Source of the DNA: Clostridia bacterium
Lineage (GTDB): Bacteria; Bacillota; Clostridia; UBA1381; UBA9506
Assembly (NCBI GenBank): GCA_017416855.1
Contig: JAFQAZ010000011.1
Location: 1 to 64,000, forward strand
Direction: 5' to 3'
Length of the DNA: 64,000 nucleotides
The notes under the pieces are model-generated. The model made no database searches. It was given only the letters and a program-made list of their open reading frames with translations, and was not told the DNA's origin. The translations under genes and the position numbers were made by a program. Shown here one piece after another: positions 10,691 through 39,124 of the stretch (position 1 is the first letter of the stretch; each line of letters opens with the position of its first letter).

Positions 10691-10945
10691 TAATGAATAT
10701 CGCGGAATTTAGTTCTTGTATATTTCTTTAGTAGCTTAAAAATTTTAAATCCCATGAGGCAGCAAGCTTTGTATGATATCCTAGATACACAAATCGTGCC
10801 ATATTGGAAAAAATGAGCACTATAATTTTGTAACTTGATATGATATAATTAAATTATTAAGTGGTTTTTTCCTAGATTATAAAATGAAGAATTGTGTTGC
10901 TTTAGTATTGTTGCGTGAAAAGATAATGTGTTTGGAGGTATAATG
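10691..10945. other. Intergenic stretch between decayed kinase and regulator gene
   Basis: No gene is visible. The left part is presumably debris after the kinase breakpoint near 10690. The right part holds the first copy of the shared promoter motif and a TATAAT box. Confidence 0.5.
10796..10849 (+). promoter_or_regulatory. Conserved promoter/operator, copy 1 (regulator gene)
   Basis: A 28-base element (10796-10823) reads GTGCCATATTGG, then an A run, then TGAGCACTAT. It matches 24 of 28 bases of the element at 13334-13361. In both places a -10-like hexamer follows after exactly 20 bases (here TATAAT, 10844-10849), so the element covers the -35 position. The GTG...CAC ends are inverted. This fits an activator site for the AraC-type protein encoded 97 bases downstream of the -10 box. 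Confidence 0.65.
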
Positions 10946-13387: not shown

Positions 13388-13447
13388 TATAATAGTAAAA
13401 TAACCTTGCTTATGGCTTGTATATTAAAAGGATTAGAAGGTGTTTTT

Positions 13448-16031: not shown

Positions 16032-16045
16032 AAAGGATGGAGAAT

Positions 16046-17309: not shown

Positions 17310-20300
17310 ATGAAAAAAAGCAAGAGAATGGTATCTTGTTTTCTTTTGATTATGTTGTTAAGCAATATTTGTATTTCATATGCACAGAAGGAAAATGAGT
17401 ATTCATTTTTGCAGGACACGGTTTTAGATGCAGCGTTTTTTGGTGGCATGAGTCCGCGTGCAATGGCTTCGTATGGTGATTATTTATATGTAGCAGCAGA
17501 TACGTCATCCGAAGCAAATTCCGGCTTGAAGGTTGTAGATATTAGCAATCCTTATGAGCCAACATTAGTTGAACAGCCGAATGCTGCGTTAAATGGTTTA
17601 TACTTTCACACGAACGATATGTCAGATACAGGTATTCATATTGATGAAGTTAATGGATATTTATATGTTGGTGATGCATCCACATCAACTCAATCCGGTG
17701 TAAGCCGACAAACGCGGCGTTTCAGCTTAGAAGATCCTGCACATCCTGTACTTAACGGTTTGTTTCCGAATGCGAGTGATATGCGTGCAGGACTTAATGG
17801 TTTTGCAACTTATGAAAATTGGCTGTTTACTACAAGCCAATCACGTATAGCAGCATTTGATACAACGGAAGCGACTGCTGATAATTCTGTATCAAATATT
17901 AAAAGATTTTCAAACTATGTTCATGATATCATCGTTTGCGATGATACTGCTTTCTTTACATATACTACAAAGCTTTATGCTGTTGATTTGACAGAAATTG
18001 CTCCTAATGCCACTAGGTGGACAGCGGGAAATACGGATTTTAGTTATGCCACACTTGTTGCAGATTTTGGGGGAACTTATGACAATACGACATCTGCCTA
18101 TACAAAATTTACACGTCTTGAAAGAGATGGTAATTGGCTATATTATGCAGACAGACATCAAGAAAAGATATGGCGAATTAACATCGGGGATGGCATTACA
18201 GCTAATGAATCATATGAGGAAATATACGCTGCCGCTGATGGCGACCATATGAATGGATTTACAGTTCATGATGATGTTGTTTATGTTTATGTAAATAAAA
18301 ATACAATTCATTATTGGGAACCGGGAACAACTACCGGAAGACAAGTTTTAACAGGCTCCTTTGACGGTGATTGGGCAGAATTAGAAGTAGCACAGAATCT
18401 ATTATTGGTACGGTCAAATTGGAAAATCCATGCTATTGTAATGGCGCATAATATGGTATCTTATGAAAATGTTGATGATATTCGATCAAGTGATGCAACA
18501 GAGATTTTCGTGACGGCTCAAAATAGTACTAATGAACCAATAACAGCTAAAATTATAACTGCTGTTTACGAAAATAATGGAGGTCGATTATTGAGTACCA
18601 CTGTTGGAGAAACAGAGGTGGAAGCAAATTCATCTAAACAGATTAGTGTTAACATACTTGACGATCCGGTTATTGCTAAAAGAGAGCCTTTATCTCATGT
18701 TAAAATTTTTGTGTGGGATGGTTTTACGAATTTAAAACCTTTGAGCAAGGTTACTTCCATAACGTTTAACAATCAAGTTCCCATTACAAAACTTACATAT
18801 TTTAATGCATTAGCGGATACGCTTGTCATACATCCGGTTGAGTACGATGACGTATATAGTGATGTAACAAACACATTATGGTATGCAGACAAAATACAAG
18901 CTCTTTACAATTTTGGTTTTTTGGGAGCCAATAGCGAGCTGAATCCGCATGGTGAAATGACTCAGGAAATGTTTGCTGAAGAACTTTGCTTAGCAAGTAA
19001 GCTCTGTGATTTAGTAGATGAAACTGTCGATGCAGAGGATTTTATTACAGAATATGGCTTTATTGAAGATTATCAGGCTGAGACAATGCTCACCCATGGT
19101 ACTTTCGTTGTAGCACTAGAAAACTTTAAGAATTTCTTGGAAGAAGAAAATTATAATGTGAGCGACATGCCATGGTATGATGAACCTATTATTTTCAGAA
19201 GCACAGATGAGGTGGCTAAGGGCGAAATCTTCTCCTTATTTGGTGAAGATCTTGATTATGCACAATCCATTCGTTTGACATCTACCACCGAAGAGGAAGA
19301 GTTATCATTACCGGTATTGCAGAAAGATGCGGAGGGACAATTTGTAACAACTATTCTTCCGGAAAATGCAAGTGGAGGAGTTTATCAGGCATCGGTTATA
19401 ACCGATCAAGGGAATAGTAATGAAATTTTCTTAAACCAAGCAAGGCCGTTTTGGGTAGCTGATTCCGATGTTTTAGTTCAAGGTGGTAACGCCAGAATTA
19501 CGGGTACTAATTTAATGAATTCTATAGTTAAATTGGTATCACAGAATAGTGGTAGCGAACATATGGCGACAATGATTGCAACTGAGCCTTATATGGCAGA
19601 ATTTGTAGTGCCGTCTAATATGCCTATCGGTATGTGTAGTATTTCTGTTTCGGCTGATAATGGTACAACGTGGATGACGCTTGATAATGAACAAGCAATT
19701 TCAATCGTTGAATCGTTTGACGATCCTTACGATTTGGACGTGGGTTGGGCAAAAAATTATAATTTTACAAACAGTAAAAATGTTATGGATTATGGAGCCA
19801 GCGGCGATGGCATTACAGATGATACCGGAGCGTTTGCGCAAGCCGTCCGAGCAGTCTATGATGACGGTGGCGGTGTGGTATATGTTCCAGAGGGAGAATA
19901 TCTCATACAATCTTTGGGGCTTATGGATAAGGTCATAATAGCTGGCGAAAGCAGAACTGGAAGTGTTCTTGTATATCAAAAAGAAGCAAGTGGAAAAACT
20001 CGCCAGAATTTTATTTACTCTGATACTAACAGGGGAGCGAGTGGCTATCAAGGTTTATATAATCTAACGATAGAAGCAGAAGAAGGAGTTACTGCTGCGG
20101 ATGATTATTGTACTTATTTTATGAAAATTGGCGAAGGCAGCAGTGGAAATAGCCAGTTTGATGGATTTTTCTTTAAAAATATAACGGTGGATATGCCTAA
20201 AGATGTTGAAAACATGACTCGAAATGGTCAAGTATCAGGTCCGATGTGGTCATATCTTACATTGAATAAATACTGTTTGGTTGACAACTGTACTTTTGTT

Positions 20301-21656
20301 GGTTTCAAAGGTGGCTTTGCACCTGTTTGGGGCGACTATGTTACCATGAGAAACTGTACAACAGAAGCGGTTAAGAGCTCGTGGTCTGCCAGAAGTTGTT
20401 ACGTTGTTTTTGAGGATAATGATATTGTATATGACAACTTAGCATTAGGCGGTCAAGATAATGATTTGGGCTTTTATTCACAAGGATTTTTTGCCAGCAG
20501 TCATTTTTATGCTGCAAACAACAACTTTGAAAATGTGGGAACGCCTCATTGGACACAAAAGGACGGGGCGAACGGAGCATATTCAGGTAGTAATGATGGA
20601 GAAATAATCTGTGCAGAGCCTGTAGATTTAGGCCATGTCAGAAAAGCCGGAACAATTTATGGAGTTAACGGTTTGGAAGTAACATTGTCGCCTAGGATGT
20701 ATCATCCTATGCTGACAGAGAATGGAATTGAACCGCTCGTAGATGCTGAAGGCAATATTGTATACTCTCAAAATATGTTGCCGGAAGAGTATATTAGTGG
20801 TACGAACAATGATGGAACACCTAATTGGGGTGACTATTATTTGTTGATTGTTGGTGGTCGTGGCTTAGGACAATACCGCAGAGTCACAGTTTTAAATGAC
20901 GACACTGCACCATACCGAGTGACGATTGATAAAGAGTGGGATATTGTTCCAGATGAAACCAGTGAATTTTTACTGACAACCTTAAATGCACAAAGTATTA
21001 TGTATAATAATACAGCAACCAACGCGCAAAAAGGCTATTGGCTCTATGGTGGCGGCGTAGATTGTATTATAGCGAACAACACGGGTAATGATGTTGATGG
21101 AATTTACGTTGCGGCGTTTGATGTCGTGCAAGGTAACCATTGCAGAACGCAGGGAACAGCAACACCAGTTATTGAAACCAATCATAGGCGCTTTAAAAAC
21201 TTCTTTATTACTATAAAGGATAATAATTTTGTGGGAGATCATCCTCAACGTCAAACTTGTTCTATTGCAATTTGGAATATATATGCTCAAGTAACAGAGC
21301 CGTTTGGCTATGGTTCCTATGGCGGAGTGATTAAAGGTAATAGTATGCAAGATGCCAATCAAGAAAAAGTATCCGTCAATGATCCACCGGAATCTCAAGC
21401 GATTTATGGTGTTGCCATAGGCAGTAGTGCAACATTCTCAGAGGATTATAAGGTAGCTAAAGGATTTATTGTAGAAAACAATAGTTTTACCAACATGCTG
21501 TCTGGTATATCAATTGGGGAATGCAGAAACACATCGAGAAATGATGGATCAATTAGCGGTGTTGTACTCAAGGAGAATACTTTTGACAATGTAGGTTCAT
21601 CTACTCAGGTGAGACAGAGTTGTATGGATGTTTTAAACTTAAGTACGGAGGAATGA
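17310..21656 (+). CDS. Giant secreted beta-propeller and beta-helix (pectate-lyase-like) protein
   Basis: A 1448-residue exported protein with a signal peptide (ending near ISYA, residue 25). Domains in order: LVIVD-type propeller, about 40-380 (AMASYGDYLYVA, GLKVVDISNPYEP); a beta-sandwich 385-490 ending in KIFVWDGFTNLKPL; a degenerate SLH-like region 505-610; an IPT/TIG-like region 620-800 (FWVADSDVLVQGG); and a right-handed parallel beta-helix from about 825, opened by the Pectate_lyase_3 signature VMDYGASGDGITDDTGAF. Beta-helix proteins of this type cleave acidic or decorated glycans. It heads a four-gene string with gaps of 2, 4 and 16 bases. No catalytic residues can be assigned. It shares domains with the protein at 24795. 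Confidence 0.85.
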   Translation: MKKSKRMVSCFLLIMLLSNICISYAQKENEYSFLQDTVLDAAFFGGMSPRAMASYGDYLYVAADTSSEANSGLKVVDISNPYEPTLVEQPNAALNGLYFHTNDMSDTGIHIDEVNGYLYVGDASTSTQSGVSRQTRRFSLEDPAHPVLNGLFPNASDMRAGLNGFATYENWLFTTSQSRIAAFDTTEATADNSVSNIKRFSNYVHDIIVCDDTAFFTYTTKLYAVDLTEIAPNATRWTAGNTDFSYATLVADFGGTYDNTTSAYTKFTRLERDGNWLYYADRHQEKIWRINIGDGITANESYEEIYAAADGDHMNGFTVHDDVVYVYVNKNTIHYWEPGTTTGRQVLTGSFDGDWAELEVAQNLLLVRSNWKIHAIVMAHNMVSYENVDDIRSSDATEIFVTAQNSTNEPITAKIITAVYENNGGRLLSTTVGETEVEANSSKQISVNILDDPVIAKREPLSHVKIFVWDGFTNLKPLSKVTSITFNNQVPITKLTYFNALADTLVIHPVEYDDVYSDVTNTLWYADKIQALYNFGFLGANSELNPHGEMTQEMFAEELCLASKLCDLVDETVDAEDFITEYGFIEDYQAETMLTHGTFVVALENFKNFLEEENYNVSDMPWYDEPIIFRSTDEVAKGEIFSLFGEDLDYAQSIRLTSTTEEEELSLPVLQKDAEGQFVTTILPENASGGVYQASVITDQGNSNEIFLNQARPFWVADSDVLVQGGNARITGTNLMNSIVKLVSQNSGSEHMATMIATEPYMAEFVVPSNMPIGMCSISVSADNGTTWMTLDNEQAISIVESFDDPYDLDVGWAKNYNFTNSKNVMDYGASGDGITDDTGAFAQAVRAVYDDGGGVVYVPEGEYLIQSLGLMDKVIIAGESRTGSVLVYQKEASGKTRQNFIYSDTNRGASGYQGLYNLTIEAEEGVTAADDYCTYFMKIGEGSSGNSQFDGFFFKNITVDMPKDVENMTRNGQVSGPMWSYLTLNKYCLVDNCTFVGFKGGFAPVWGDYVTMRNCTTEAVKSSWSARSCYVVFEDNDIVYDNLALGGQDNDLGFYSQGFFASSHFYAANNNFENVGTPHWTQKDGANGAYSGSNDGEIICAEPVDLGHVRKAGTIYGVNGLEVTLSPRMYHPMLTENGIEPLVDAEGNIVYSQNMLPEEYISGTNNDGTPNWGDYYLLIVGGRGLGQYRRVTVLNDDTAPYRVTIDKEWDIVPDETSEFLLTTLNAQSIMYNNTATNAQKGYWLYGGGVDCIIANNTGNDVDGIYVAAFDVVQGNHCRTQGTATPVIETNHRRFKNFFITIKDNNFVGDHPQRQTCSIAIWNIYAQVTEPFGYGSYGGVIKGNSMQDANQEKVSVNDPPESQAIYGVAIGSSATFSEDYKVAKGFIVENNSFTNMLSGISIGECRNTSRNDGSISGVVLKENTFDNVGSSTQVRQSCMDVLNLSTEE

Positions 21657-21658
21657 AA

Positions 21659-24600
21659 ATGAGAGAAAATTGTGGAATTGTTACTAGGATTTCTGCTTTA
21701 CTTTTAGCGTTATTTACGTTTTTTATTGCTATGGGTTGTCCGTTGGTCTCAGCAACGGGAACAACGAGTATTGCTATTCGAAAGATAGACGACGCCTGTT
21801 TTGATTTGACAGGTAAAGGTCAGTTTAATTCTATGGCAGTATATGGAAATTATTTATATATTGCTGACCGAAACGGGTCGAGCGGCACGGTCTTTGTGTA
21901 TGATATTAGCAACCCTGAAATGCCGGTCCTTCAAACCACCACAGACGAAAGATTGAATGAGCGTCCAAATCCTGATGTTTTTCAAGTCATGATGATTCAA
22001 GACGGCTATTTATATTTTGCTGTGTGTCCCGGTAGTGGTGCTATTGATACTGTAGGTGGAGAGGTAAGAAAGTTTGATTTACATGATACACCCGAAGATC
22101 CAAAGTATATTGCAACTTATAAAACTACAACACCGAGACTTGGTGGTTTGGCGGTTATTGACGGAGAATTGATTGCAGGTTCAGGCTCCAGTAATACCGT
22201 TAGCGTATGGCAAGACGATAAAACGGAAAATGCAACAGGTGAAACTGTGGAAGTTTCAACAATACGCACCGTGAATAATCAGCATATACGAAATGGTATT
22301 TATATGCCCTATGGTAATGGTGATGTGTTATATTGCTATTCAATGTATAAACAAGCTTTTTATGTTGTTCCTTCTGCTCTGAATGTTACAGATAAAATGT
22401 ATGCGAGATTAACAGGAACTAAAGCAGCGGCTATTTCAGAAACCACAGGATATGCCTATGCAGTCAAAAAAGATAATGGTGGGCTGGCAATTATTGATTT
22501 AGATGAAGGTTATCAGGGAGAAGCGTTCAAAAGCATAACGACTATTTCTCCTACTGATTTAGGAACAACGGCACTCACCAACACAATTTGCTATGGATAT
22601 GTGCATGGGAACTATTTGATTTTTGTTGGTAATGGAGCGACAGATAAATTAGTTGTTTTTGATATTTCTCAACCCTTATCACCGAAACTTATAAGTGATA
22701 ATATAGTTCTTTCAGCAAGTCATGTGACTGCTGTTGGTGATTATATTTACACGGATTTAATGAAAGCTGTGGATGGTGTTTATCATTCCTATTTAGATTG
22801 TTTTAAAATTAAAAATTATAATTTCACCATTCTACAGAGTCAAGGTGTTACTGCCTTGCCTTATGATATAGAAGGTACAGCTCCGGCGGGATGTGAAGTT
22901 AAACTTAGTTTGAAGAGTGCAGAAATGAGTGTGGCTAAGACATTTACCATTCCTGTGGATGCTAGTGGTTGGAAAAAAACATTGGCTGTAGACGAAATTT
23001 ATGATGGAAGCTATACAGTTACGGCAGAGTTGTATGATAGTGGTGATAAAGTTTTAACTAAAACATCAACGCTTTCAGTTAACCTGCCAGGTTATGACGA
23101 ACCGGACAGTAGAAACACATTAGTAAACGAAAGTGATGCTTCATCTCTTACTATTTTAAGTTATCCGTTAGACTATGATACTAACAAGGTTACTATCATC
23201 GGTGTGGTTCCTATGGGTGACCGAATTGGGTTTAAAGAAGTTTACTGTCAGGCAACAGACCCCAATGGCGTATCGCTGCTGACGGAAACACAGGCAAGCA
23301 TGGGTCAGTTTAATTTTACCGTTGATTTAGGTGCTACACCGGTAGATAATCGCGACTACACGATTGCGGTTACATGCGAGGGAGTGACAACGCCGGTAAC
23401 TGCCACATTCCGCTTTTATGGTGAAAATTTCCGAAATGCAGCATTGCGTGATGTCGATGCCGCTACCGGAGAGACCATGGCCGAGACGCTTGCAACATAT
23501 AATGGTGTTTTGTTGTTAGACATGGGTGAAGGCAGTGATTATGCAGGCCTATTAAATAAACAAACTGTTTTAGATGCTATTGCAGATGCCAATATTACGC
23601 AAAGTAGTGCAGGTTTTGATGAAATTCGTGAAATTTTTTCCTCTGCAGTAGCAGAGCAGAAAAATGTTGAAAATCTAATAGCAACTATTGATGCTTGCGC
23701 CACGGAAGATGACGTACAAAATCTTATTGGAACAAATGCAACACTTTTAGGAATTGACCTTGAAAGTGATGAATACAAAGATTTAAGTGATGAAGCAAAG
23801 AAATCTATTTGCAAAGATATAATTTCATATGAAGGAACCTTGACAGAGGAAGTAGTTAGAGATTTGTATTCTGAGGAATCATGTCTCCTTCGTCTGATTA
23901 ATACATCAGATATGACGGTTATTGGAAACTATTTACTCAAATATAAAACAGAACTCGGATTACTTCAGGTGGCTATAGATAAATATGATGTCTTGACTAG
24001 TAATCAATATATATCAGAACTTGCAACGATTCACAGAACAATGGCAAGAATTGACAAGGCAGACTATTTTGCATCTATTCCGGATATAGCTACATTATTT
24101 AATAATACATTGGCAACAATAACAATTCCTAATAGTCAGCAGAAGGATAATAATGATCGCGGAAAAGGCAGTTCAACCGGTGGAGGAGGCTTTATAAGCG
24201 GGGCAACCATTCCGATTATACAGGATAAACCTGTGGTTAGTCAGGAAAAATTTTCTGATTTAGGCTCAGTAGCCTGGGCTGAAGAGGCGATTCTTTATTT
24301 GGCAGACAAAGGGATTGTTGCAGGTAGAACAAGTACAACCTTTGCACCCAACGATAGTTTGCGTAGAGAAGAATTTGTTAAATTGTTAGTTATGAGTGCA
24401 GGAGTAGAGTTGCAGGAAGTATCTGATGAATATTCAGATGTAGACGTTTCTGCTTGGTATGCACCTTATGTTATAACCGCTTCCCGGATGGGTATTGTAA
24501 ATGGCACGGGCGATGGAAAATTTGGTGTGGGAGAAGAACTGACACGCGAACAAATGGCAGTTATGCTTGAACGCTTTATTACCAATCAGAATATGGTGAT

Positions 24601-24790
24601 GGAAAAGAAGCAAACTGTGGCTTTTGAAGATGAGATTTCCGAATACGCCAAAGAGAGTGTACAGAGGCTTGCCGAGTGGGGTATTATGAATGGAACATCT
24701 GAGAATGCATTTCAAGGCAAGGAAATTTCGACTCGTGCTATGGGGGCGAAGGTGCTTTATGAACTGCTATTGCTGGTGGAAGGGAGATAA
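21659..24790 (+). CDS. S-layer-anchored beta-propeller protein (three C-terminal SLH domains)
   Basis: A 1043-residue surface protein: signal peptide to about residue 34 (SALLLALFTFFIAMG), LVIVD-type propeller 40-390 (FNSMAVYGNYLYIADRNG), two beta-sandwich domains 395-590, a helical region 600-850, a Gly/Ser linker near 855, and three SLH domains from about 880 (SVAWAEEAILYLADKGIVAG; WYAPYVITASRMGIVNGTG; YAKESVQRLAEWGIMNG). SLH triplets bind secondary cell-wall polymer and hold the protein in the S-layer. Start ATG 21659 is seven bases after GGAGG; an ATG at 21653 is too close to it. There is no obvious catalytic domain, so it probably binds glycans or scaffolds the beta-helix partners. Confidence 0.88.
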   Translation: MRENCGIVTRISALLLALFTFFIAMGCPLVSATGTTSIAIRKIDDACFDLTGKGQFNSMAVYGNYLYIADRNGSSGTVFVYDISNPEMPVLQTTTDERLNERPNPDVFQVMMIQDGYLYFAVCPGSGAIDTVGGEVRKFDLHDTPEDPKYIATYKTTTPRLGGLAVIDGELIAGSGSSNTVSVWQDDKTENATGETVEVSTIRTVNNQHIRNGIYMPYGNGDVLYCYSMYKQAFYVVPSALNVTDKMYARLTGTKAAAISETTGYAYAVKKDNGGLAIIDLDEGYQGEAFKSITTISPTDLGTTALTNTICYGYVHGNYLIFVGNGATDKLVVFDISQPLSPKLISDNIVLSASHVTAVGDYIYTDLMKAVDGVYHSYLDCFKIKNYNFTILQSQGVTALPYDIEGTAPAGCEVKLSLKSAEMSVAKTFTIPVDASGWKKTLAVDEIYDGSYTVTAELYDSGDKVLTKTSTLSVNLPGYDEPDSRNTLVNESDASSLTILSYPLDYDTNKVTIIGVVPMGDRIGFKEVYCQATDPNGVSLLTETQASMGQFNFTVDLGATPVDNRDYTIAVTCEGVTTPVTATFRFYGENFRNAALRDVDAATGETMAETLATYNGVLLLDMGEGSDYAGLLNKQTVLDAIADANITQSSAGFDEIREIFSSAVAEQKNVENLIATIDACATEDDVQNLIGTNATLLGIDLESDEYKDLSDEAKKSICKDIISYEGTLTEEVVRDLYSEESCLLRLINTSDMTVIGNYLLKYKTELGLLQVAIDKYDVLTSNQYISELATIHRTMARIDKADYFASIPDIATLFNNTLATITIPNSQQKDNNDRGKGSSTGGGGFISGATIPIIQDKPVVSQEKFSDLGSVAWAEEAILYLADKGIVAGRTSTTFAPNDSLRREEFVKLLVMSAGVELQEVSDEYSDVDVSAWYAPYVITASRMGIVNGTGDGKFGVGEELTREQMAVMLERFITNQNMVMEKKQTVAFEDEISEYAKESVQRLAEWGIMNGTSENAFQGKEISTRAMGAKVLYELLLLVEGR

Positions 24791-24794
24791 ATAG

Positions 24795-27700
24795 ATGAAA
24801 AGAGTTTTAAGCATTATTTTAGTTTTCTGTCTTCTGTTGACTTTTGGAACAGTTGCTTTTAGTGAGGATGCTATCGCAGAAGAAACTAAGCTATTGAACT
24901 TTGAGGATATTGATGGTTCCTGGGCAAAAGAGTATATTGAAGAACTGGCTGAGCAGGGAATTATTAACGGCGTGTCTGAAACAGAGTTTGCACCGGATAG
25001 AACCATATCCCGTGCAGAATTTTTGACAATGGTATTCCGCGTTTTGAAACTGAGTCCATTAGAGTATGAGAACATCTATCCAGATGTTTTAACGACAGAT
25101 TGGTATGCAGAAATGTTGCAGGCGGTTTATAGCCTTCGTCTGTTAGATGATGAAGGGTTTGGCGGCAATTTTAATGGAAATCAGCCAATCACAAGAGAAG
25201 AAATGGCATCTCTTTTAGCACGCGGTGGGTTATTATATCTGGAGACAACTGAGTCAGAAGAAGTTACTTATGCTGATAGTGCTGAATTTTCTTCTTGGGC
25301 CAAAGGGGATATTGCAACAGTCAGCGCATGGAAGGTTATGGAGGGCAAAGAGCAAGGGAACTTTGCCTGCCACGACAACGCTACAAGAGCTGAAACCGCA
25401 GCGGTTATTAAAAGGCTTATGGATGTATTTACAGGAGCTGGCTATGACACAAGTATTATGCCCTGGCGACAAGCACCAATTATGATTAAAGCATCGGATG
25501 AAATTAAACCTGGTTATGCATTTAACCTATATGGTTATGGTTTTGAAGAGAATGGGAAAATTTATGTAGAAGATGCAAAAATAGCAGGAAAATTACCCTC
25601 TGAAAATGCAATGGTATTAGAGCCTACTATTTATGGTGATAACGCATCTTATGTTACGGCTATTCTTCCTGAGACAGCAACACCAGGTGTGTACAGTATA
25701 TGGGTGGAAAATAGTTTTGGGATGAGTCAAGCTTTTTACATGAATCAGGCACGTCCGTGGTGGGTTGGTACCTCAGATTATTACTGGGAAGGTCAAATGG
25801 TTCAGTTGATTGGTACAAACTTTATGTTAGATAGAGTTGGTGCTGAAACGAAAACTGAAGTCAAATTACTTTCTAATGGTCGTGAATATCAAGCTGAGAT
25901 TTTGGAGTTAGAGCCATACAGTATAAAGTTTACAGTTCCAACAGGAATGCCTCTAGGAGAATTCAAGATTGCCGTGACTAATAATGGTGTTACTTGGACC
26001 ACTCTTGATAATGAGCAGAGACTTTATACTGTTGAAAAAGGCGAGGACCCATATAATTTAGGTGTGGGTTGGGCAAACGGCTATGTATATAATTATAAGG
26101 TTAATGTAAAGGATTTTGGCGCCAAGGGTGATGGCGTAGCTGATGATACAGAGGCCATTGGCAAAGCCCTGGCAGATATTGAAGCGCATGGCGGAGGTAT
26201 TTGTTACTTCCCAATTGGTACATATAGGTGTACGACAATTCCCGTGCCTGGCAAAACAATTTTAGAGGGTGAAGATCGAGAAAAAACCAAACTGGCTTAT
26301 TGTGGGACTGATAATAGTGCACAATGGTGGACTAGCGCTCCGTCCTCTTACACCATTGGATATCAAGGTATGTATAATCTTACCCTTACAACCAGCCCGG
26401 AAATTACAAAATACGATTTGCCCTGGGCTGTAATATGGATTGGTCAACAATGGGATACGTATTCGGCAAATGACCGGGATTCAAGAACCTTTGATGGTAT
26501 GTTCATTAAATCTGTTAATATGGATTTTCCATTGGAGCTTGCAGAAAACGGTGCGACAGTTCACTTTTATGGTATTGTTAGATCATATGTTTTAATGGAA
26601 GATTTTAATGGCGTAGGACACAAATCAGACTTAGGACCGATTTTTGGTGACTATGTGACAGCAAGAAATATTGTATCCCATGCATCCCAAACCACTCATG
26701 AGCGTATTGGTATGTACTGTATTTATGAAAATAGCCATTTGATTCATTATCCGGATTATCGTTTGGATAATGGTAATCCAGTATATAACCAAGGAATATT
26801 CTATAGAAGTCGTACCTACTTAGCTCATAATACTATTGAAAACACAGGAACACCCAACGAAAACGGTTTGAATCAAAATGATGGTGAGATTACGGCATCG
26901 GAGCCGGTTAGTGGCGGTCGCTTATATTATATGGGTCAGGTTAATAACGCAACTCCAAATAGCATAACGGGTACATATCGTATCAATCCTGATGGCTCTA
27001 AGGTTGCAGCGGAGTGGAGCGTGACATTTCCTGCAGATAGGCCATGGGCAACTCGTTTTGAAAATATAAAAGTTGTTATTGGTAGTGGTCGTGGCGTTGG
27101 ACAGTGGCGTGATATGGTAGGATATAAAATTGACGAAAAGACAAATACATGTACCTTTACAATTGATCGTCCCTGGGATATCGTACCTGATGGAAGCAGT
27201 ACATTTCTTGTTGAAACCCATTGTGAAGAAAATATTGTCTACGATAATAAAGCCGTTAATTGCGAAAAAGGCTTCTGGCTTTATGGTGGTAATTTAGAGG
27301 CTATTATCGATGGCAATACAGGTATTAACTGTGAAGGTATTCTAAGTCGTGATTTTGAAATTGATAATACACCGACTCCTTCCCGAGCAAGATATTTATA
27401 TACGAGATTTGTAACTATTAAAAACAATCATTTTGAAGGTAGTTCGCGACTGGGTTCTATTTGTTCAATAAACCAATCATCTGTTTATATAGTGAATGGT
27501 GATGAAGGAACATTTGGTTTGTCTTGTTTTGGTGCTGAAATACGTGATAACTATATGAAAGGTGCCATGACAGAACGAAGTTCGATTAAAAATACTGAGA
27601 CAACCCCAATTAATGGTATTTTAGTAATTGTCGGAGTTGAAGGCAAAGCACCGACAGATACACTTGTTCATGGGGTAATTATAGAAAATAATACCCTTGT

Positions 27701-27860
27701 CAATATGAAGAACGGAATTTCAATCGGAAACACGACCGTGGGAAAAAGCGGACCTGCAGATATGAGTGGTGTTCTGATTAAGGGAAATCATTATACCAAT
27801 GTGAGAAGCCATATTGATATTTATGATGGTGTCGAAAACCTAGTTACAATAGATGAATAA
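24795..27860 (+). CDS. S-layer-anchored beta-helix (pectate-lyase-like) enzyme
   Basis: A 1021-residue exported protein. After the signal peptide (about residues 1-22) come three SLH domains, 28-215 (WAKEYIEELAEQGIINGVSE; DWYAEMLQAVYSLRLLDD; WAKGDIATVSAWKVMEGK), then a TIG-like domain and the shared NQARPWWVG segment, then a right-handed beta-helix from about 435 with VKDFGAKGDGVADDTEAIG, the Pectate_lyase_3 opening. From the TIG region onward it parallels the 17310 protein, including DNxxxxGxWLYGG repeats. This is the clearest surface polysaccharide-degrading candidate of the locus; whether it is a lyase or a hydrolase cannot be told. Confidence 0.88.
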   Translation: MKRVLSIILVFCLLLTFGTVAFSEDAIAEETKLLNFEDIDGSWAKEYIEELAEQGIINGVSETEFAPDRTISRAEFLTMVFRVLKLSPLEYENIYPDVLTTDWYAEMLQAVYSLRLLDDEGFGGNFNGNQPITREEMASLLARGGLLYLETTESEEVTYADSAEFSSWAKGDIATVSAWKVMEGKEQGNFACHDNATRAETAAVIKRLMDVFTGAGYDTSIMPWRQAPIMIKASDEIKPGYAFNLYGYGFEENGKIYVEDAKIAGKLPSENAMVLEPTIYGDNASYVTAILPETATPGVYSIWVENSFGMSQAFYMNQARPWWVGTSDYYWEGQMVQLIGTNFMLDRVGAETKTEVKLLSNGREYQAEILELEPYSIKFTVPTGMPLGEFKIAVTNNGVTWTTLDNEQRLYTVEKGEDPYNLGVGWANGYVYNYKVNVKDFGAKGDGVADDTEAIGKALADIEAHGGGICYFPIGTYRCTTIPVPGKTILEGEDREKTKLAYCGTDNSAQWWTSAPSSYTIGYQGMYNLTLTTSPEITKYDLPWAVIWIGQQWDTYSANDRDSRTFDGMFIKSVNMDFPLELAENGATVHFYGIVRSYVLMEDFNGVGHKSDLGPIFGDYVTARNIVSHASQTTHERIGMYCIYENSHLIHYPDYRLDNGNPVYNQGIFYRSRTYLAHNTIENTGTPNENGLNQNDGEITASEPVSGGRLYYMGQVNNATPNSITGTYRINPDGSKVAAEWSVTFPADRPWATRFENIKVVIGSGRGVGQWRDMVGYKIDEKTNTCTFTIDRPWDIVPDGSSTFLVETHCEENIVYDNKAVNCEKGFWLYGGNLEAIIDGNTGINCEGILSRDFEIDNTPTPSRARYLYTRFVTIKNNHFEGSSRLGSICSINQSSVYIVNGDEGTFGLSCFGAEIRDNYMKGAMTERSSIKNTETTPINGILVIVGVEGKAPTDTLVHGVIIENNTLVNMKNGISIGNTTVGKSGPADMSGVLIKGNHYTNVRSHIDIYDGVENLVTIDE

Positions 27861-27876
27861 GAGGAGGTGCTTTGCG

Positions 27877-30654
27877 ATGAGTAGAATGAAAAGAATTATT
27901 GCAATTTTATTAATGTTTGTTATGCTTTTGCCTTTATGCTTTGTCGTATCGGCTAGTGAAAACTCTGTAGATGAATCATACAGACAAAAGGTTATTGCCT
28001 TATCGGAATTAGGCCTTGTGGGAAATCCGGATTCATTTTTACAAAGTAAAGATGGAGATGTAACGAAACGCGAACTTGCAGTTTCTGTAAATGGTTTTTT
28101 ACAACTTCCTTCTGGCGATGTAACATTGTCAGATGTTCCAGAAAATGATAGTGCCTATGAAGCAATTTCTGCTTGTGTAGCCTTTGGACTGTTGCAGGCT
28201 AGTGAACAAAACTTTAAACCGAATCAGCCTGTTACTTCATTGGAAGCTGCAGAGGCGTTTGCAAATGCGCTTTGTTTTGAAGTTTTATCTGAAGGAAATA
28301 CGAAACTTCTCACGGCTTATAGAAATAAAGTGTTAAAATCTGTTTCAGGCAATGAGCGTCTTACAAAAGAGAAATATATTTCACTATTGCTTGATGTGGC
28401 CAAAATGGGAACTGCTGAAATTAATTCAATTACGATGGATACTGTAGTGGTTAATTCCGGCAAGACAGATACAATGCTCTATAAATATCGGTCTATTTAT
28501 CAAGTTGAAGGTGTTATCGAGGCTAATGGTGTAACCGGTCTTGATACTGCGGATGGCTTGCAAAATGATTATATAAAAATTGATGGTGCGCTATATCGTG
28601 TAGCAGATAGTGCAATGGGTGACTTTATAGGAAGCAGAGTAGTTGCCTTTGTTTTTGAAGGTACGGGCAATGAAACTGTATTAGCCTTATATGAAAACAA
28701 AAATGAAAAACTTATTCTCGCATCAGAAGACGTACTCAGTTCAAAAGCATATTCTGTTACATATTTAGAAGGTAATAGAACAAGAACGTTAAATTTGTCG
28801 AGATATATAAGTGTCATTTATAATGGTAAAATGGCCGGCACCCTGACGGCTGAGATGCTTCAGGCGAAAGATGGTAGCCTTACATTTATAGATAATGATG
28901 GTGATGGAACATATGATGTTGCCAAGGTTACTAAATATGTTGATTATGTTCTCTCGGGAGTTGACCGCACTCAGGAAATTCTTTATTTAGAAGGTGGCAC
29001 ACAATTAGATATCAGTGATGATGCAGGCCTTGTAAAAATTGAACTGAGCGGTGAAGAAATTACAAAGACATATTTCTATGAAATTGCCATGGTGGGTGAT
29101 GTTATCACTGTAGCCACAAGTGGGAGTGGAAAGAAATATATAAGCATTGCAATAGGTTTTGATGTTATTGAAGGTACTTTAACTGGAGTGAGTGATAATC
29201 AAGTTAAAATCAATAACAAAACATATTATATGACAGACAGTTTCTGGTCCAGTAAGCAAATATCAGGGTATTACGTTGGTGATAGTGTTAGAATTAGCCT
29301 TAATGGTCAGGGAAAAGTTTGCAAGATTGAAGCTGGTACTACCCTTGGTGAAAAAACAGGATTTTTATTGGATGTAGCTGGTAATCAAGGTCTTTCAACG
29401 GGCGGAAAATTCCGGATATTTGATGAAACCGGCAAGACTGTTGTCATAGATGGTGCCGAACGGGTGCGACATAATGGAAGCAGTCAAACACCTCGTGCTC
29501 TAGCAGAAAAGTTGCTGGGAGAAGGTTTTGCACCTCAACCTATTTATTACACTGTAAATGCTGAAGGTAAATTAAGAGAAATCAAAACTGCTGTTATCGG
29601 TGCAACAGAAGCTGCATTCTCTATGGATATTGCTTGGTCAAATGCTTATTATATGTCTGATAACAATAACACGTTTGTTGGAGACACGTTAGATCCAGAC
29701 TATGCTGATGATTTTTCTACGGACTATCCGACGACACGTATGGCAGCAGGTGTTGAGTATTCGGTAGGTACCGGTTCAAAAATGATTTATATTAACAAAA
29801 GAACATCTGATGGTAAAATTGCAGACAAAGGTATTCGTTGGATTGAAAAGAAAGACTTAAGTGAATTTTATAGCAAAGTTCAAATGTATGATATAGGAGA
29901 GAATGGTGTCGCTTCTCTAACGGTTATTGAGGATAGTAAAGAGATTAAAACCGATTATGAAATCAGTTCGTATTCTTATTTCTGTCCTGTCATCAACGTA
30001 CTTAGAGGTTATGATGCAGAAACAGATGGTGATGCACTTTACATTGATATTTGGCATCGCGGTAAAGAAAAACGTTTGACTGTTGATACGGTTATTGTAA
30101 GTCAGTGCCTGACTGGTACAGATAATCAGGATGACCAAAGCAATGTTTTGGAAACTGAAATTAATGTTCAGAACTTCGCAGATTATGTCAAGCCGGGGGA
30201 TGTATTGCAGGTTGTTATCAGAGATGACGAACTAATCGCTTTCCGTCGTATCTTTACTACGGAATCTAAACCTACCAATGCAGCAGAGGTGGATAAACGA
30301 CTTCTATATTTAGAAGATGGCTTAAACGAAAAGATTATTACATACAAGACGAACGTTCCTTTAAGTGCTCAGGCAGGTGTAGCATCTTTGGGTAGAGTTC
30401 TTGCAACTCAAGACAGCAATAGTATTTATTTCAAAACAAAGAGAAACGGGGTAGAAGTTAACCGTTATAGGCAGATTTTGAATCCAAGCATCGGTATGGT
30501 ATATAACATGAAGCGTACCAGAAATGAGATTACCGTTACAAATAGCAGCGTGTTGAACATGCAAGCAGGAGGCGAGGGGGGCTCCCTGATTTTGGTTCAT
30601 TCACGTGTAGGTAAAACAGTTGAAATTATTATTTTAGAGGGCTTTGAAAACTAA
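27877..30654 (+). CDS. Secreted protein with degenerate SLH region and repeated beta domains
   Basis: A 925-residue exported protein with a signal peptide ending near VVSAS (residue 25). Residues 35-135 look like weakened SLH repeats (KVIALSELGLVGN; AYEAISACVAFGLLQASE). From 170 on it contains beta-rich modules of one kind (VEGVIEANGVTGLDT, IEGTLTGVSDNQVKI) that occur in other clostridial S-layer proteins; no enzyme motif is visible. The frame opens at 27853, overlapping the previous stop, but ATG 27877 follows GAGGAGGTG at a good distance. As last member of the tight four-gene string it probably builds or spaces the surface complex. Confidence 0.75.
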   Translation: MSRMKRIIAILLMFVMLLPLCFVVSASENSVDESYRQKVIALSELGLVGNPDSFLQSKDGDVTKRELAVSVNGFLQLPSGDVTLSDVPENDSAYEAISACVAFGLLQASEQNFKPNQPVTSLEAAEAFANALCFEVLSEGNTKLLTAYRNKVLKSVSGNERLTKEKYISLLLDVAKMGTAEINSITMDTVVVNSGKTDTMLYKYRSIYQVEGVIEANGVTGLDTADGLQNDYIKIDGALYRVADSAMGDFIGSRVVAFVFEGTGNETVLALYENKNEKLILASEDVLSSKAYSVTYLEGNRTRTLNLSRYISVIYNGKMAGTLTAEMLQAKDGSLTFIDNDGDGTYDVAKVTKYVDYVLSGVDRTQEILYLEGGTQLDISDDAGLVKIELSGEEITKTYFYEIAMVGDVITVATSGSGKKYISIAIGFDVIEGTLTGVSDNQVKINNKTYYMTDSFWSSKQISGYYVGDSVRISLNGQGKVCKIEAGTTLGEKTGFLLDVAGNQGLSTGGKFRIFDETGKTVVIDGAERVRHNGSSQTPRALAEKLLGEGFAPQPIYYTVNAEGKLREIKTAVIGATEAAFSMDIAWSNAYYMSDNNNTFVGDTLDPDYADDFSTDYPTTRMAAGVEYSVGTGSKMIYINKRTSDGKIADKGIRWIEKKDLSEFYSKVQMYDIGENGVASLTVIEDSKEIKTDYEISSYSYFCPVINVLRGYDAETDGDALYIDIWHRGKEKRLTVDTVIVSQCLTGTDNQDDQSNVLETEINVQNFADYVKPGDVLQVVIRDDELIAFRRIFTTESKPTNAAEVDKRLLYLEDGLNEKIITYKTNVPLSAQAGVASLGRVLATQDSNSIYFKTKRNGVEVNRYRQILNPSIGMVYNMKRTRNEITVTNSSVLNMQAGGEGGSLILVHSRVGKTVEIIILEGFEN

Positions 30655-30760
30655 TAGCCAAATAACAACATTAAAAAGCTTTGCGATGAGATAAAAAAGC
30701 AAAGCACAAAATATTTAAAATGTACTTTATGTACATGACAAATTAAAGGAGTGTTTTTTT
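30655..30760 (+). promoter_or_regulatory. Leader with two small hairpins
   Basis: GCTTTGC (30678-30684) pairs with GCAAAGC (30699-30705), and ATGTAC-tttat-GTACAT spans 30720-30736. No T-tract follows either. They could modulate expression of the propeller gene at 30761 or bind a regulator. Confidence 0.35.
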
Positions 30761-33520
30761 ATGAGGAAACATCTAAGAAAGTCTTTGGCGTGTGTTCTGG
30801 CATTGGTCATGGTTCTTGGTACAGTAGGTGTAGTATCAGCAGAGACTGCGGTGTCTGCTGGAACACCTGCGAAGCAAACACAAACAATTTCGGCACGTGC
30901 TATGGGGGTTAACGGTGATTACTTGTATGCCGTTAGATATGCAAATAGCAACGGCAAAGCACAACTGGAAGTTTATCACTTATCTAATCCTAATGTGGCA
31001 GTTACATCCAGTGAGGCAACTGATTTGGAATTTTACACAACTATCTCTTCGGAAGGTATGCTCATCCATGATGGTTATCTTTATGTTGCTGCGAAGGATA
31101 GCTATACTTCAAGCACTACTAATGATAGCCAGACAACAAGCCACATGATTCGTAAGTATAGCCTTGCTGACCCTACAAAACCAGTTCTGGTAGGAAAGTA
31201 TGCCAACTTGGCAACTACGGGTGCTATCGGTAAATATGAAATAGGTACAAATGGTTTTGCTATTTATGGTAATTATCTTTTTGCTTCTACAATGTCTAGA
31301 CTTGGCGTTTATGATATTTCACAAGAAAATGTTACAACACCGGTTAAGCAGATGTTTGATTTTGGCGGTGCCTATGAAGATATTACTGTGTATGGAGACT
31401 ATGCTTTCATGACTAATGGTAATGAAGTGTGGTCAGTTAATGTAAAGACTAATGCTCCTACAACAACTTGGGCAGCAGATTTATCTAACTGTTCAACAAA
31501 ACAGGTGATTGCTACAGTCACTGGTTTTTCAAAAGCATTTGGTTGTGCGAATACGAAGTTATGCGTTGATAATGGTTGGCTTTACTTCGGTAGTTCGACG
31601 ACAAAAGCAGTATATCGTGTTAATATTGCAGATGGTGTAACAGCCAATGAAACCGTTTATACCGTTTGGCAGGGAACAGACGCAAATAACTTTGGATATG
31701 AAGTAGATGATGATGTTTTATATGTTTATGGTACTACCAATACTCTATATTACAAAAAATTAGAAGCAAACGAAAGCTTCACAAATGTTAATACCTTTGC
31801 AACAGCAACATTTACTGAAATTAATAACTCCAAAGTTGTTGATATACAGAAATCGGGTAATAAATTATTGTTAGAAAACAACTATTCTATTCATATTCTT
31901 CCCATTTCGGAAGTTAGCCTGGAAGTAAAAGCAGAAGAAAAACCGTCATTAAATCTTGAAACAGCGATTGTTCCTGATGGTCAGCCAATGGCATCAGCAG
32001 TATATAACAATATTTTGTATGTAAGCTATAGAAAGTCAAGTACCGGCGGTGTGTATATGTATGACATCACCAATCCTGCAGCACCGGTGCTGAAGAATAC
32101 AGTTGAACTTTTATCTACAAATATTATGTCTGTTGATGGACATACAGCTATGATTATTAATGATGGCTACCTTTATGCAGCATTTAGACATAGTGATACA
32201 GCGTTTTACATTGAAAAATATAAACTTGATGCGAATGGTGTTCCTCAATATGTAACGACGTATGGAGGAATTGGAAGAAGTCCGGTTGGCATGGCTGTTT
32301 CTAATGGTTATTTATATGCAAGTGCTATCAACTGGGCTAAATCTTACATTTGGTTAGATGACCAAACTGCTACTACGAGCACAAAGCTTACCTATGACCA
32401 GGCTAAACAACCGCTTAAAACCGATACAATAGCAGAAAGTGGTTCAACAAATAAAGGTCAAAGTATGTCTAATCTTAAATTAATAGCGTATGATGGTGCT
32501 GTTTACGGTGTGCCGATTTACGGAAGAACCGTAATACGTCAATTTACTTATAACAATAGTGAATTTATTGGACAGAACTTTACCACAAATCATTTATGGG
32601 GTGCTATATTAAGCGAAACAAAAGAAGCGGCTTACATGCTTTCAGAAAATGGTGAGCTTCTGGTAGCAGATTTGTCTGAAGGCGTTGAAAACATTAACAC
32701 GATTGTTAATACTGTGAAGATTCCTGGTGACCTAAATCTTGGTGATACAACTCTTACCAATTATGAAATGCAGGTGCAAGGTGATTATCTGTATCTGTCT
32801 ACCGCAAATGGTCATTTAGCTTCTACAGTTGGAGCAGCTGCTGCTAAAGGTGTTTACTTATTTGATATTACAGACAGACTAAATCCTTATTTGGTGTCAG
32901 TTTCTCAGACACCGCAGAGAAGACCCGCATGTAATATGGTGGTAGATAATAATGGTAATGTATATCTAACCAATAAAACAAACGATAGTACAGTGAAGTA
33001 TTTGCAGCCTGTTACTTTGGTAAAAGAGGTTGTAGAAAATAATGCACAGGGAATTAGTCTGCCAGCTACATTTACCGGTACCTTTGTAGGTAAGACATTA
33101 ACAGTTTTAGTTAACAATGAGCCCGTTACTCCTGTATGTCTTAACGGTACTTGGAGTTACACGTTGACAGAGGGTAGTGGTTCAGCAACAGTTAAGGTTT
33201 CGTGTGATGGAGCAACGATTGAGAAAAGTTATAATATTTTGGAAGAAACCGTTGTAGCATCATATTTGACAGGGGAAGACTTTATTTCTGCGAGTGTTAA
33301 CTTCGTTAACACAGAAAATGAGCCTATAGATATTTTATGTGCAGTTGCATGCTATAGTGAAAATGGTTTGATAGATTTAGATTGTGAAATTAAAACGGTG
33401 GGAGCTCTTGATTCAATGAGATTTTCACCCTGGATTCCGGTGCAAGAGTGTGATAGAGTAGCGATGTATGTTTGGGAAAGTGAGTCTCTAAGACCTATCA
33501 CAATGCTTTCTTTAAACTAA
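30761..33520 (+). CDS. Secreted double beta-propeller protein without SLH anchor
   Basis: A 919-residue exported protein; signal peptide to about residue 28 (LACVLALVMVLGTVGVVSA). It holds two LVIVD-type propellers, about 35-390 (ARAMGVNGDYLYAVRYA) and 395-760 (GGVYMYDITNPAAPVLK), a small beta domain near 770-825, and a C-terminal domain (830-919) that matches the sandwich domain after the propeller of the 17310 protein (VAMYVWESESLRPI). No SLH, LPXTG or lipobox is present, so it is either released or held by binding to the anchored proteins. Ribosome site AAAGGAG. Probable glycan-binding component. Confidence 0.8.
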   Translation: MRKHLRKSLACVLALVMVLGTVGVVSAETAVSAGTPAKQTQTISARAMGVNGDYLYAVRYANSNGKAQLEVYHLSNPNVAVTSSEATDLEFYTTISSEGMLIHDGYLYVAAKDSYTSSTTNDSQTTSHMIRKYSLADPTKPVLVGKYANLATTGAIGKYEIGTNGFAIYGNYLFASTMSRLGVYDISQENVTTPVKQMFDFGGAYEDITVYGDYAFMTNGNEVWSVNVKTNAPTTTWAADLSNCSTKQVIATVTGFSKAFGCANTKLCVDNGWLYFGSSTTKAVYRVNIADGVTANETVYTVWQGTDANNFGYEVDDDVLYVYGTTNTLYYKKLEANESFTNVNTFATATFTEINNSKVVDIQKSGNKLLLENNYSIHILPISEVSLEVKAEEKPSLNLETAIVPDGQPMASAVYNNILYVSYRKSSTGGVYMYDITNPAAPVLKNTVELLSTNIMSVDGHTAMIINDGYLYAAFRHSDTAFYIEKYKLDANGVPQYVTTYGGIGRSPVGMAVSNGYLYASAINWAKSYIWLDDQTATTSTKLTYDQAKQPLKTDTIAESGSTNKGQSMSNLKLIAYDGAVYGVPIYGRTVIRQFTYNNSEFIGQNFTTNHLWGAILSETKEAAYMLSENGELLVADLSEGVENINTIVNTVKIPGDLNLGDTTLTNYEMQVQGDYLYLSTANGHLASTVGAAAAKGVYLFDITDRLNPYLVSVSQTPQRRPACNMVVDNNGNVYLTNKTNDSTVKYLQPVTLVKEVVENNAQGISLPATFTGTFVGKTLTVLVNNEPVTPVCLNGTWSYTLTEGSGSATVKVSCDGATIEKSYNILEETVVASYLTGEDFISASVNFVNTENEPIDILCAVACYSENGLIDLDCEIKTVGALDSMRFSPWIPVQECDRVAMYVWESESLRPITMLSLN

Positions 33521-33615: not shown

Positions 33616-35541
33616 TTGGAAATATATGATGTAGAAGGGCAAAAAAAACGTTCATCGCAAATTAGACAGTTATTAATCGCTAATCACCTTTGCGACATAG
33701 ATGCTGACGGAAGACCTAATGGAAAAAGATGGCTTACGGGAGGGAATCTCCCAGATAAGGGTGGCATTACGGAGTGGTTCTATTTTTGTCAGGGACTTTG
33801 GAACGAAGACGAAAACTACGGTAATTTAACAGAAAAAATGCTGAAGTATTATGCACCATTAGACCATTTTACTACTTTTGAACCATTCTTTTGCATATTA
33901 GAACTTGTAAGAAATAAGCAAGCTTTATCTGTCGGACTCGTAAAAAAATTTGAAGGTTATGCCAAAAAATATTTGGAATGGTATATGAAATCCCAAGAAG
34001 ATTTTATTGGCGTTAATGATAATACACCATGTCTAATGGTGGCTGGTCTTGTACTCGGTGGTGAGTATTTTGGGGAACAACGTTGGATTGAAGAAGCAGA
34101 AAGTCGTCTTTTGCGACTTCAATCAATGTTGGAACGACGAGGATTTTTAAGCGAATATAATAGCCTAACTTATACACCGTTATCTTTATATGGTTTGTCA
34201 GCTATTAGCAATTATGCCAAGCATAAAGAGTGTATCCGATTATCATTAGCGTGCGAGGCTAGAATTTGGGAAGCGATTGCTGCTTTATATCAGCCATCTG
34301 TCTCGCAAACTGCTGGTCCTTATGCCAGAGCCTATCCTGTAGATAAACTGGCACAAAGCTACAATATGCGTACTTTACTTTATGTTGTTTTAGGGGACGA
34401 ATGCGGTGTAACTCCAATTAACACTATTTTTGCGGGGGACAAGGACGAAAATTTTTATTGGCACATTTCTGCAGCTCATATAGGTAGTATGCTTTATCAT
34501 TGCCCAAAAGAACTGGGCGAATCTATGCTTGTCAAAGATTTTCCCTATGTCGTTCAAGGAACAGCAGAGGGTTCTGCTTCTGCAGATAGCTTTTTGTTAC
34601 CCTTGGATGGATATGTTTATCAGGAGAATGTTCAATGCCGCAATGTATTTGAAGAATTGAATGAACAAGATGAGATTTTTGAATATGGCGCAGGTGTAAT
34701 CAATTTGTACACCTATTTTGATGAAACCTATTCAATGGGGACGGCTACTCGCGATTGGCATAATGGTGTGCAAACAGATAATTTTACTCTCTTATATGCA
34801 GATAGAAAAAAAGCCGTGAACCAATCACAAGTAGGAACTTTATTTGCGAATTATGTTGTTAATGCCTCCAACCTTATGAGAGATGATTTAGGGAGAAAAA
34901 TGGCTTTTCAAAGCGAGCGGACGGCCATGGTACTATATAGACCTAAGTGGCAAGGGGAAAAGGTTCTAGAGGCAGGACTGAACTTGATTTTTGGAAATAG
35001 TTCTTTACTAAAAAATGTGCGTATTGGCGACGCAGTTTTATCAAGAGAAAAGCTTGATGAAGAGGGTATTTTATATAGAGGTACTCAGCTTATACCGGTT
35101 TTTGTTCATACTGCGGGATTGTATATTATGCTAATTCCTCTTGTGGCACAGAAAGATTGCGAAGATGCCTTAATAGAATTTGCTAATATGGGAGAAAATG
35201 CAAAGTTAACCATTTACAATTATAAGGGTGATGGTAAAGAACGGATTTACCATAAAAAAGGTTTTTGTTGTTTAACAAATGGCTTTGTTTGTGAAGTTCG
35301 GCGAGAGAATGAATATGGCAGTTTTGATGAATTTATAAAAATCATGAAAGAGTTTTCGATTACGGATGAAATTCGGACTAATATTCATACTCGCTATGCA
35401 TTAGAGCGTGAAATTTGTTACAAAGGCAGCGATAAAACTTTAGCTTGCTGCGTGAGTCCGCTTACAGATGGTGTGAAATACATGACTGTAGACGGAAGAC
35501 AAATCAGTGAAGAGAAATTTATAGTGACAGGGGTGTGCTAA
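33616..35541 (+). CDS. Cytosolic (alpha/alpha) barrel-type lyase or hydrolase candidate
   Basis: A 641-residue protein without signal peptide or membrane segment. The first 330 residues are helical and rich in aromatic residues, like an (alpha/alpha) toroid (KRWLTGGNLPDKGGITEWFY; YSMGTATRDWHNGVQTDNFT follows later). From about 370 a beta-sandwich-like half begins. This two-part build occurs in heparinase-like and other polysaccharide lyases and in some glycoside hydrolases; I cannot assign a family. The start is a TTG (33616) seven bases after GGAGGA, with no ATG alternative nearby, suggesting low translation. It directly precedes the permease genes, so it probably degrades imported oligosaccharides. 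Confidence 0.65.
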   Translation: MEIYDVEGQKKRSSQIRQLLIANHLCDIDADGRPNGKRWLTGGNLPDKGGITEWFYFCQGLWNEDENYGNLTEKMLKYYAPLDHFTTFEPFFCILELVRNKQALSVGLVKKFEGYAKKYLEWYMKSQEDFIGVNDNTPCLMVAGLVLGGEYFGEQRWIEEAESRLLRLQSMLERRGFLSEYNSLTYTPLSLYGLSAISNYAKHKECIRLSLACEARIWEAIAALYQPSVSQTAGPYARAYPVDKLAQSYNMRTLLYVVLGDECGVTPINTIFAGDKDENFYWHISAAHIGSMLYHCPKELGESMLVKDFPYVVQGTAEGSASADSFLLPLDGYVYQENVQCRNVFEELNEQDEIFEYGAGVINLYTYFDETYSMGTATRDWHNGVQTDNFTLLYADRKKAVNQSQVGTLFANYVVNASNLMRDDLGRKMAFQSERTAMVLYRPKWQGEKVLEAGLNLIFGNSSLLKNVRIGDAVLSREKLDEEGILYRGTQLIPVFVHTAGLYIMLIPLVAQKDCEDALIEFANMGENAKLTIYNYKGDGKERIYHKKGFCCLTNGFVCEVRRENEYGSFDEFIKIMKEFSITDEIRTNIHTRYALEREICYKGSDKTLACCVSPLTDGVKYMTVDGRQISEEKFIVTGVC

Positions 35542-39061: not shown

Positions 39062-39124
39062 TCGTATAAGGCAGAAAAACGAAGCAATCTGCGAAATGTT
39101 AAGTTTTATTGCGTAAAATAAATT

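Follow-up and report, generated by a model that had tools for sequence, protein, structure and literature searches.

A recurring pair of S-layer-anchored proteins in a probable polysaccharide-utilization locus of a Clostridia bacterium

The window analyzed here, a stretch of 64,000 nucleotides from a Clostridia bacterium (contig JAFQAZ010000011.1, positions 1 to 64,000), carries a glycan-utilization locus that spans about 10.9-42.3 kb, with all genes on the + strand. ORF calling confirmed the five consecutive exported proteins (o1-o5, + strand, 17310-33520) reported in a preliminary description of this DNA, and all five were found to have hydrophobic signal-like N-termini. The genes of the locus are as follows.

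10928..13219, +, AraC-type regulator with HTH_18 (PF12833, 1.3e-21), a GGDEF_2-like middle (PF17853, 5.5e-8) and a membrane-spanning N-terminus
13406..14998, +, solute-binding lipoprotein 1 (SBP; PF13416, 1.7e-7)
15042-16031 and 16022-17227, +, two Gfo/Idh/MocA oxidoreductases (PF01408/PF22725)
17310-21656, +, o1, 1448 aa: propeller (37-385), beta-sandwich (380-485), degenerate SLH-like region (about 480-625), tandem IPT (625-818), right-handed beta-helix (819-1445); from Pfam, blastp and local profiles
about 21653-24790, +, o2, 1045 aa: propeller, family-A Ig/helical region (residues about 550-869), C-terminal SLHx3; from Pfam and local profiles
24795-27860, +, o3, 1021 aa: N-terminal SLHx3, tandem IPT (226-430), right-handed beta-helix (432-1020); from Pfam, local profiles and a structure model
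27853-30654, +, o4, 933 aa: N-terminal SLH pseudo-trimer (about 40-187), then about 700 aa of small beta-barrels; from Pfam, a profile and a structure model
30761-33520, +, o5, 919 aa: propellers (32-384 and 396-760), C-terminal beta-sandwich, no SLH; from blastp and local profiles
33616..35541, +, o6, 641 aa: matches in relative G010 (32%) and P. contaminans (30%), beside a beta-helix gene
35546-36496, +, ABC permease 1 (PF00528, 1e-11)
36521-37390, +, ABC permease 2 (PF00528, 0.0015, below cut-off)
37421-38995, +, solute-binding lipoprotein 2 (PF01547, 3e-13)
from 39125, +, ceramidase-like protein (PF04734, 3.6e-6, below cut-off)
from 40530, +, third Gfo/Idh oxidoreductase (PF01408, 3e-33)
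41634-42320, +, D-lyxose isomerase (PF07385, 1e-86)

The gaps across o1-o5 are -4, +4, -8, and +106 bases, in place of the four-gene string with gaps of 2-16 bases given previously; neighboring genes among o1-o4 either overlap or are separated by 4 bases, and o5 starts 106 bases further on. The start of o2 is most likely the ATG at 21653, in an ATGA overlapping the o1 stop. Scanning of the o1-o4 interval revealed no promoter excess and no convincing terminator. The two SBPs (13406 and 37421) are 41% identical to each other, and syntenic copies in the relative G010 (contig C18) include a permease and an SBP that are 61% and 50% identical, respectively, to the window genes. A homolog of the regulator adjoins a further syntenic locus of this relative (G010:C39). 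The o6 protein, for which no Pfam, PDB or NCBIfam relative was found, lacks a signal-like N-terminus and is probably cytosolic. There is no ATPase gene within the locus, and its gene content and order match the layout of a glycan-utilization locus.

Three further features of the window were noted. At its start, the ceramidase-like gene has a perfect 18-base tandem repeat (39122-39184, 3.5 copies, ATTATGTTAGGAAAATGT) that supplies several ATG codons in frame and makes the peptide MLGKCI recur; the copy number of this repeat could be variable. Upstream of the locus, 6689-10390 encodes a 1233-aa protein that has neither a signal peptide nor a Pfam match; PADLOC gave only a marginal score for GajB (E 0.0016), and the protein is possibly a large regulatory or defense protein. 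The left end of the contig, near the glycan locus, carries DUF6100, DUF6017, and HTH_36 genes (2003-4948), gene types that are frequent on mobile elements.

The domains proposed for the five proteins were largely borne out. LVIVD repeats exceed the Pfam cut-off in o1 and o2 (o2: PF08309, 6e-9). The o5 protein gave no Pfam match, but blastp aligned both of its propellers with the o1 and o2 propellers (1e-37 and 1e-19); by this homology there are four propellers, distributed over the three proteins in which LVIVD-type propellers had been described. The two Pectate_lyase_3 beta-helices were recovered in o1 and o3 (PF12708, 1.2e-16 and 2.8e-12). SLH anchors, expected in two or more proteins, were found in three: Pfam detected SLH triplets at the C-terminus of o2 (PF00395, 4e-28) and the N-terminus of o3, and o4, with one SLH above the cut-off, has the entire three-lobed SLH fold in its predicted model, as does o3. 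The 480-625 region of o1 is a degenerate homolog of the o3 SLH region (z = 14.4 vs shuffles), and o5 has no such region. The sandwich domain listed as a common building block was seen in o1 and o5 only (z = 6.1). A distinct tandem IPT/TIG module is common to o1 and o3, which are 30% identical over 1018 aa (blastp 2e-127), and o4 has only the SLH domain type in common with the other four proteins. At the sequence level, the similarities among the window proteins are far beyond chance.

A predicted model of o3 (m5550b2de85ce; pLDDT 80.6) contains an SLH trimer (Z 21.2) and a tandem IPT that, in fold searches, resembles SGBP-B of a Bacteroides mixed-linkage-glucan locus. The solved folds nearest to its beta-helix are the AlgE epimerases (AlgE6: Z 19.9, 3.1 A, 348 residues), followed by tailspikes, the RbmB lyase, and polygalacturonases; PfbA was also matched. 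Across 45 diverse beta-helices, five polar positions (o3 numbering) are conserved: Q770 in 45, E698 and R772 in 43 each, and D696 and D799 in 38 each. The preliminary description had named missing catalytic residues, together with a gene set that is not conserved, as an outcome that would count against it; the beta-helices of o1 and o3 both retain all five conserved positions, including D-x-E and Q-x-R. The AlgE DPHE motif occurs in 0/45 members of the beta-helix family, and none of the GH28 motifs NTD, DD, GHG, and RIK is present in the o1 or o3 beta-helix; with both motif sets absent, o1 and o3 were ruled out as GH28 or AlgE enzymes. The conservation within the family suggests that the two beta-helices are polysaccharide-cleaving or -modifying enzymes, and the IPT-beta-helix proteins appear to constitute an unclassified enzyme family of Clostridia and Paenibacillus that extends, more distantly, to several other phyla.

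Searches with full-length o3 were swamped by SLH matches and were rerun without the SLH region. Relatives of the IPT-beta-helix part were found in 5/95 genomes of the order, own genome included, and in a 398-genome sample of the phylum in the own genome only. A scan of named genomes revealed relatives in 'Clostridia bacterium' gut MAGs (deer, goat), IPT-beta-helix proteins in many Paenibacillus species, and weaker relatives in Acidobacteria, Planctomycetota, Victivallales, and others. The P. contaminans locus also contains permeases, an SBP, a regulator, and o6. In Paenibacillus and one Clostridiales MAG, the IPT-beta-helix protein can carry its own fused C-terminal SLH domains (L147:8000-13207, L152:8438-14449, L143:7706-13711), which thereby replace separate anchoring proteins.

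Inspection of the loci of relatives in the order (G010, three contigs; G087, two contigs; G022; G084) revealed a recurring order of permeases, SBP, o2-like C-terminal-SLH protein, o4-like protein, and IPT-beta-helix protein. Using the propeller profile of the window, propellers were detected in 7/8 of the IPT-beta-helix loci of relatives vs 3/83 other loci, the weakest of the seven positives being G010:C17 (E 0.008). Gene sets with a propeller, an IPT-beta-helix, and SLH thus recur in four further genomes from the order, and in this respect the conservation that the preliminary description had asked for was found; the exact five-gene set was not. Fusions are present in G010 (propeller-SLH-IPT-beta-helix) and G087 (IPT-propeller-beta-helix), and since gene order and fusions vary between loci, the five proteins were rejected as a conserved unit. 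The composition is conserved across relatives, and the exact gene content is not.

Comparison with other genomes placed o2 and o4 in a pair of S-layer-anchored proteins (families A and B, respectively) that recurs in many Clostridia families. Family A proteins combine an Ig-like domain and helical repeats with a glycine-rich linker and SLHx3, and have a short form of about 550 aa; larger A partners have extra N-terminal modules, a propeller in o2 and F5/8, cadherin-like or cohesin-like domains elsewhere. An iterated search with the helical stretch of o2 alone gave no relatives; the family was detected with a profile built from the short partners, which o2 matches at 1.5e-28. Family B consists of an N-terminal SLH region followed by about 700 aa of small beta-barrels. 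Neither core matched a Pfam family beyond stray members. The o4 profile detected B in 95/95 genomes of the order, mostly in multiple copies, and the B core is present in 104/391 genomes of the class, own order counted in. The o4 protein is not a partner of the propeller proteins or enzymes; it comes from a distinct S-layer-like family that all genomes of the order possess.

Among 81 B genes drawn from neighborhoods of up to 20 kb in about 33 genomes, 54 have a C-terminal-SLH gene immediately upstream on the same strand, vs 20/915 other genes (2%); such a gene lies on either side of 62 and within three genes of 65. The Fisher p of about 1e-51 is indicative only, because neighborhoods from one genome, or from related genomes, are not independent of each other. 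The median A-B distance is about 10 bases; in the window, the o3 gene separates A from B. Outside the order, a C-terminal-SLH gene is upstream of 15/41 B genes vs 12/435 other genes, and family A is present in 30/35 tested out-of-order genomes with B, vs 2/20 without B. The own genome has about a dozen A/B loci, whose cargo varies and includes GH141-like and heparinase-like proteins, and ABC permeases are present at many A/B loci. One of these loci (L072, C17:22000-41999) combines an A/B pair with three propeller-like proteins (1617, 561, and 565 aa) and has no IPT-beta-helix. The partner distances of A and B are weakly correlated (Mantel r = 0.22; nearest-neighbor agreement 11/43), so tight co-evolution was not borne out; this indicates that pairs are often reshuffled and argues against tight one-to-one interfaces. 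In the open literature, neither the A/B families nor a per-locus S-layer-like paralog was found described, and the pair is apparently undescribed. It was invisible to the preliminary description because other genomes were needed to see it.

The 16 of the 81 B genes that have no such gene within three genes are mostly of a form of about 865 aa that lacks C-terminal-SLH neighbors. B genes without such a neighbor (about 856-966 aa; L068:7019-9916, L078, L079, L082, L085, L089) were seen once per genome in many genomes, and this form is a candidate for the main S-layer protein of the order.

The predicted model of o4 has middling core confidence (pLDDT 77.6, pTM 0.57). Its SLH region resembles SpaA-SLH (Z 14.4; 2.8 A for 138 residues). 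For residues 360-437, the top fold match is the self-assembly domain from the S-layer protein of Viridibacillus arvi (Z 9.5; 2.0 A for 71 residues), with unrelated small barrels scoring lower at Z 8.1 and 7.2; the match covers one small domain of o4. OB-like folds are widespread, and Foldseek matches of the o4 core to DDB1 and HIN domains, which have a small-barrel architecture in common with it, were dismissed. Overall, the model suggests that o4 may be an S-layer-type subunit. The genome (2.37 Mb, 97% complete) contains 108 SLH domains and encodes a CsaB pyruvyl transferase (TIGR03609, 275 bits vs a cut-off of 213). The outer-membrane marker Omp85 was not found in the genome, and control genomes gave matches. 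The presence of CsaB and the absence of Omp85 indicate a monoderm cell that should be able to bind SLH proteins.

Taken together, o1-o5 probably form the extracellular half of one polysaccharide-utilization locus of a monoderm Clostridia cell, with an A/B pair in its display; we assign this full model a probability of roughly 0.72. In this model, SLH trimers would tether o2, o3, and o4 to the pyruvylated secondary cell-wall polymer, with o4 serving as an S-layer-type subunit and o2 as its paired, locus-specific, propeller-bearing display protein. The anchored o3, and o1 with its degenerate anchor and its own propeller, would cleave or modify the polysaccharide, and the propellers of o1, o2, and o5 may act as platforms for ligands or partners, retaining both the glycan and o5, which has no anchor of its own, on the cell surface. 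Freed oligosaccharides would be caught by the two SBPs and imported by the adjacent permeases, breakdown would be completed inside the cell by o6, the Gfo/Idh enzymes, and D-lyxose isomerase, and the AraC-type regulator would control the locus.

The physical assembly of these proteins is a proposal. They could instead be ordinary CAZymes of a Gram-positive PUL, anchored by SLH and acting independently, with no dedicated complex and with o4 as a common S-layer paralog that happens to lie in such loci, and we consider this a serious competitor at somewhat less than even odds. The abundance of SLH domains in the genome, the absence of the A/B pair from the inspected IPT-beta-helix loci of Paenibacillus species, and the weak co-divergence of A and B are all consistent with independent enzymes, as are the single anchored enzymes, rather than complexes, reported for Paenibacillus sp. 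JDR-2 (PMC4765114). However, the adjacency of A and B is too regular (54/81 vs 2%) for such a reading, both are defined families, and other families of the class also retain the pair.

Two other explanations concern what the locus does. The polar residues of the beta-helices are conserved across phyla, and loci of this kind are recurrently linked with sugar ABC importers and catabolic genes; both observations make it improbable that the beta-helix proteins and the propeller proteins serve as adhesins or as a receptor-like matrix, attaching the cell to plant or host glycans, even though PfbA and numerous tailspikes were also among the fold matches and a classical catalytic motif is absent. Still less probable is a locus for making or remodeling the wall polymer or S-layer glycan of the cell itself rather than for feeding on outside glycans. 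The nearest folds are AlgE-type epimerases, which modify self-made polymers, and Gfo/Idh enzymes occur in both feeding and self-polymer settings, but two SBPs, importer permeases, and an AraC-type regulator lie in one string, the annotated genes there include no glycosyltransferase or export gene, and the distribution is patchy (5/95 genomes).

A more speculative extension, which we regard as rather unlikely as it stands, is that each glycan locus has its own B subunit and matching A, and that these form a substrate-specific S-layer patch feeding the ABC importer. By analogy, and just as tentatively, such a patch would trap the glycan and hold the anchored enzymes and propellers, and might then be a monoderm functional equivalent of SusC/SusD. 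The preliminary description had seen in the array a Gram-positive counterpart of outer-membrane uptake loci; the likeness holds in that the proteins are SLH-displayed and tied to ABC transport in a monoderm cell, and it fails for the five proteins as a fixed set, the true counterpart of a SusC/SusD signature being the o2-like/o4-like pair. We know of no general signature, akin to SusC/SusD of Bacteroidetes, for polysaccharide holding in monoderm Clostridia. The A/B pair would supply one, with B present in roughly a quarter of the sampled genomes of the class, would let glycan loci with unannotated enzymes be located in gut Clostridia MAGs, and would point to S-layer paralogs as working parts of nutrient capture.

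Several known systems resemble parts of this locus. The mannuronan C5-epimerases AlgE4/AlgE6 and other Pectate_lyase_3 proteins are the closest solved folds of the o3 beta-helix; unlike AlgE, o1 and o3 lack DPHE, have the conserved set D-x-E/Q-x-R, and carry a tandem IPT upstream. SLH-type S-layer proteins (Sap, SpaA, SbsB, V. arvi) share with o4 an N-terminal SLH trimer followed by beta-rich domains, whereas B has many locus-specific paralogs per genome, mostly beside a C-terminal-SLH gene. As in the SusC/SusD PULs of Bacteroidetes, a signature surface-protein pair lies beside enzymes at each locus, and the tandem IPT resembles SGBP-B; the genome lacks Omp85 and uptake would be by an ABC transporter, so the relationship is one of analogy only. 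SLH-bound pectin enzymes have reportedly been described in Monoglobus pectinilyticus. In Paenibacillus sp. JDR-2, multimodular enzymes held by SLH triplets adjoin importers, as here; they are individual enzymes with CBMs, and no A/B pair is mentioned in the available part of the paper (PMC4765114). An arrangement of SLH-anchored glycoside hydrolases beside ABC transporters was thus known before. A gpPUL is defined by a degrading enzyme, a carbohydrate transport system, and a transcriptional regulator in one locus (Sheridan et al. 2016, PMC5320581). Here, transport is represented by two permeases and two SBPs, regulation by the AraC-type protein at 10928-13219, and the enzyme by beta-helices with conserved polar residues and no assigned CAZy activity. 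SLH and S-layer are unmentioned in the gpPUL paper, and the window locus extends the gpPUL plan by a paired SLH module, by giant propeller proteins with anchors, and by a putative, unclassified family of beta-helix enzymes.
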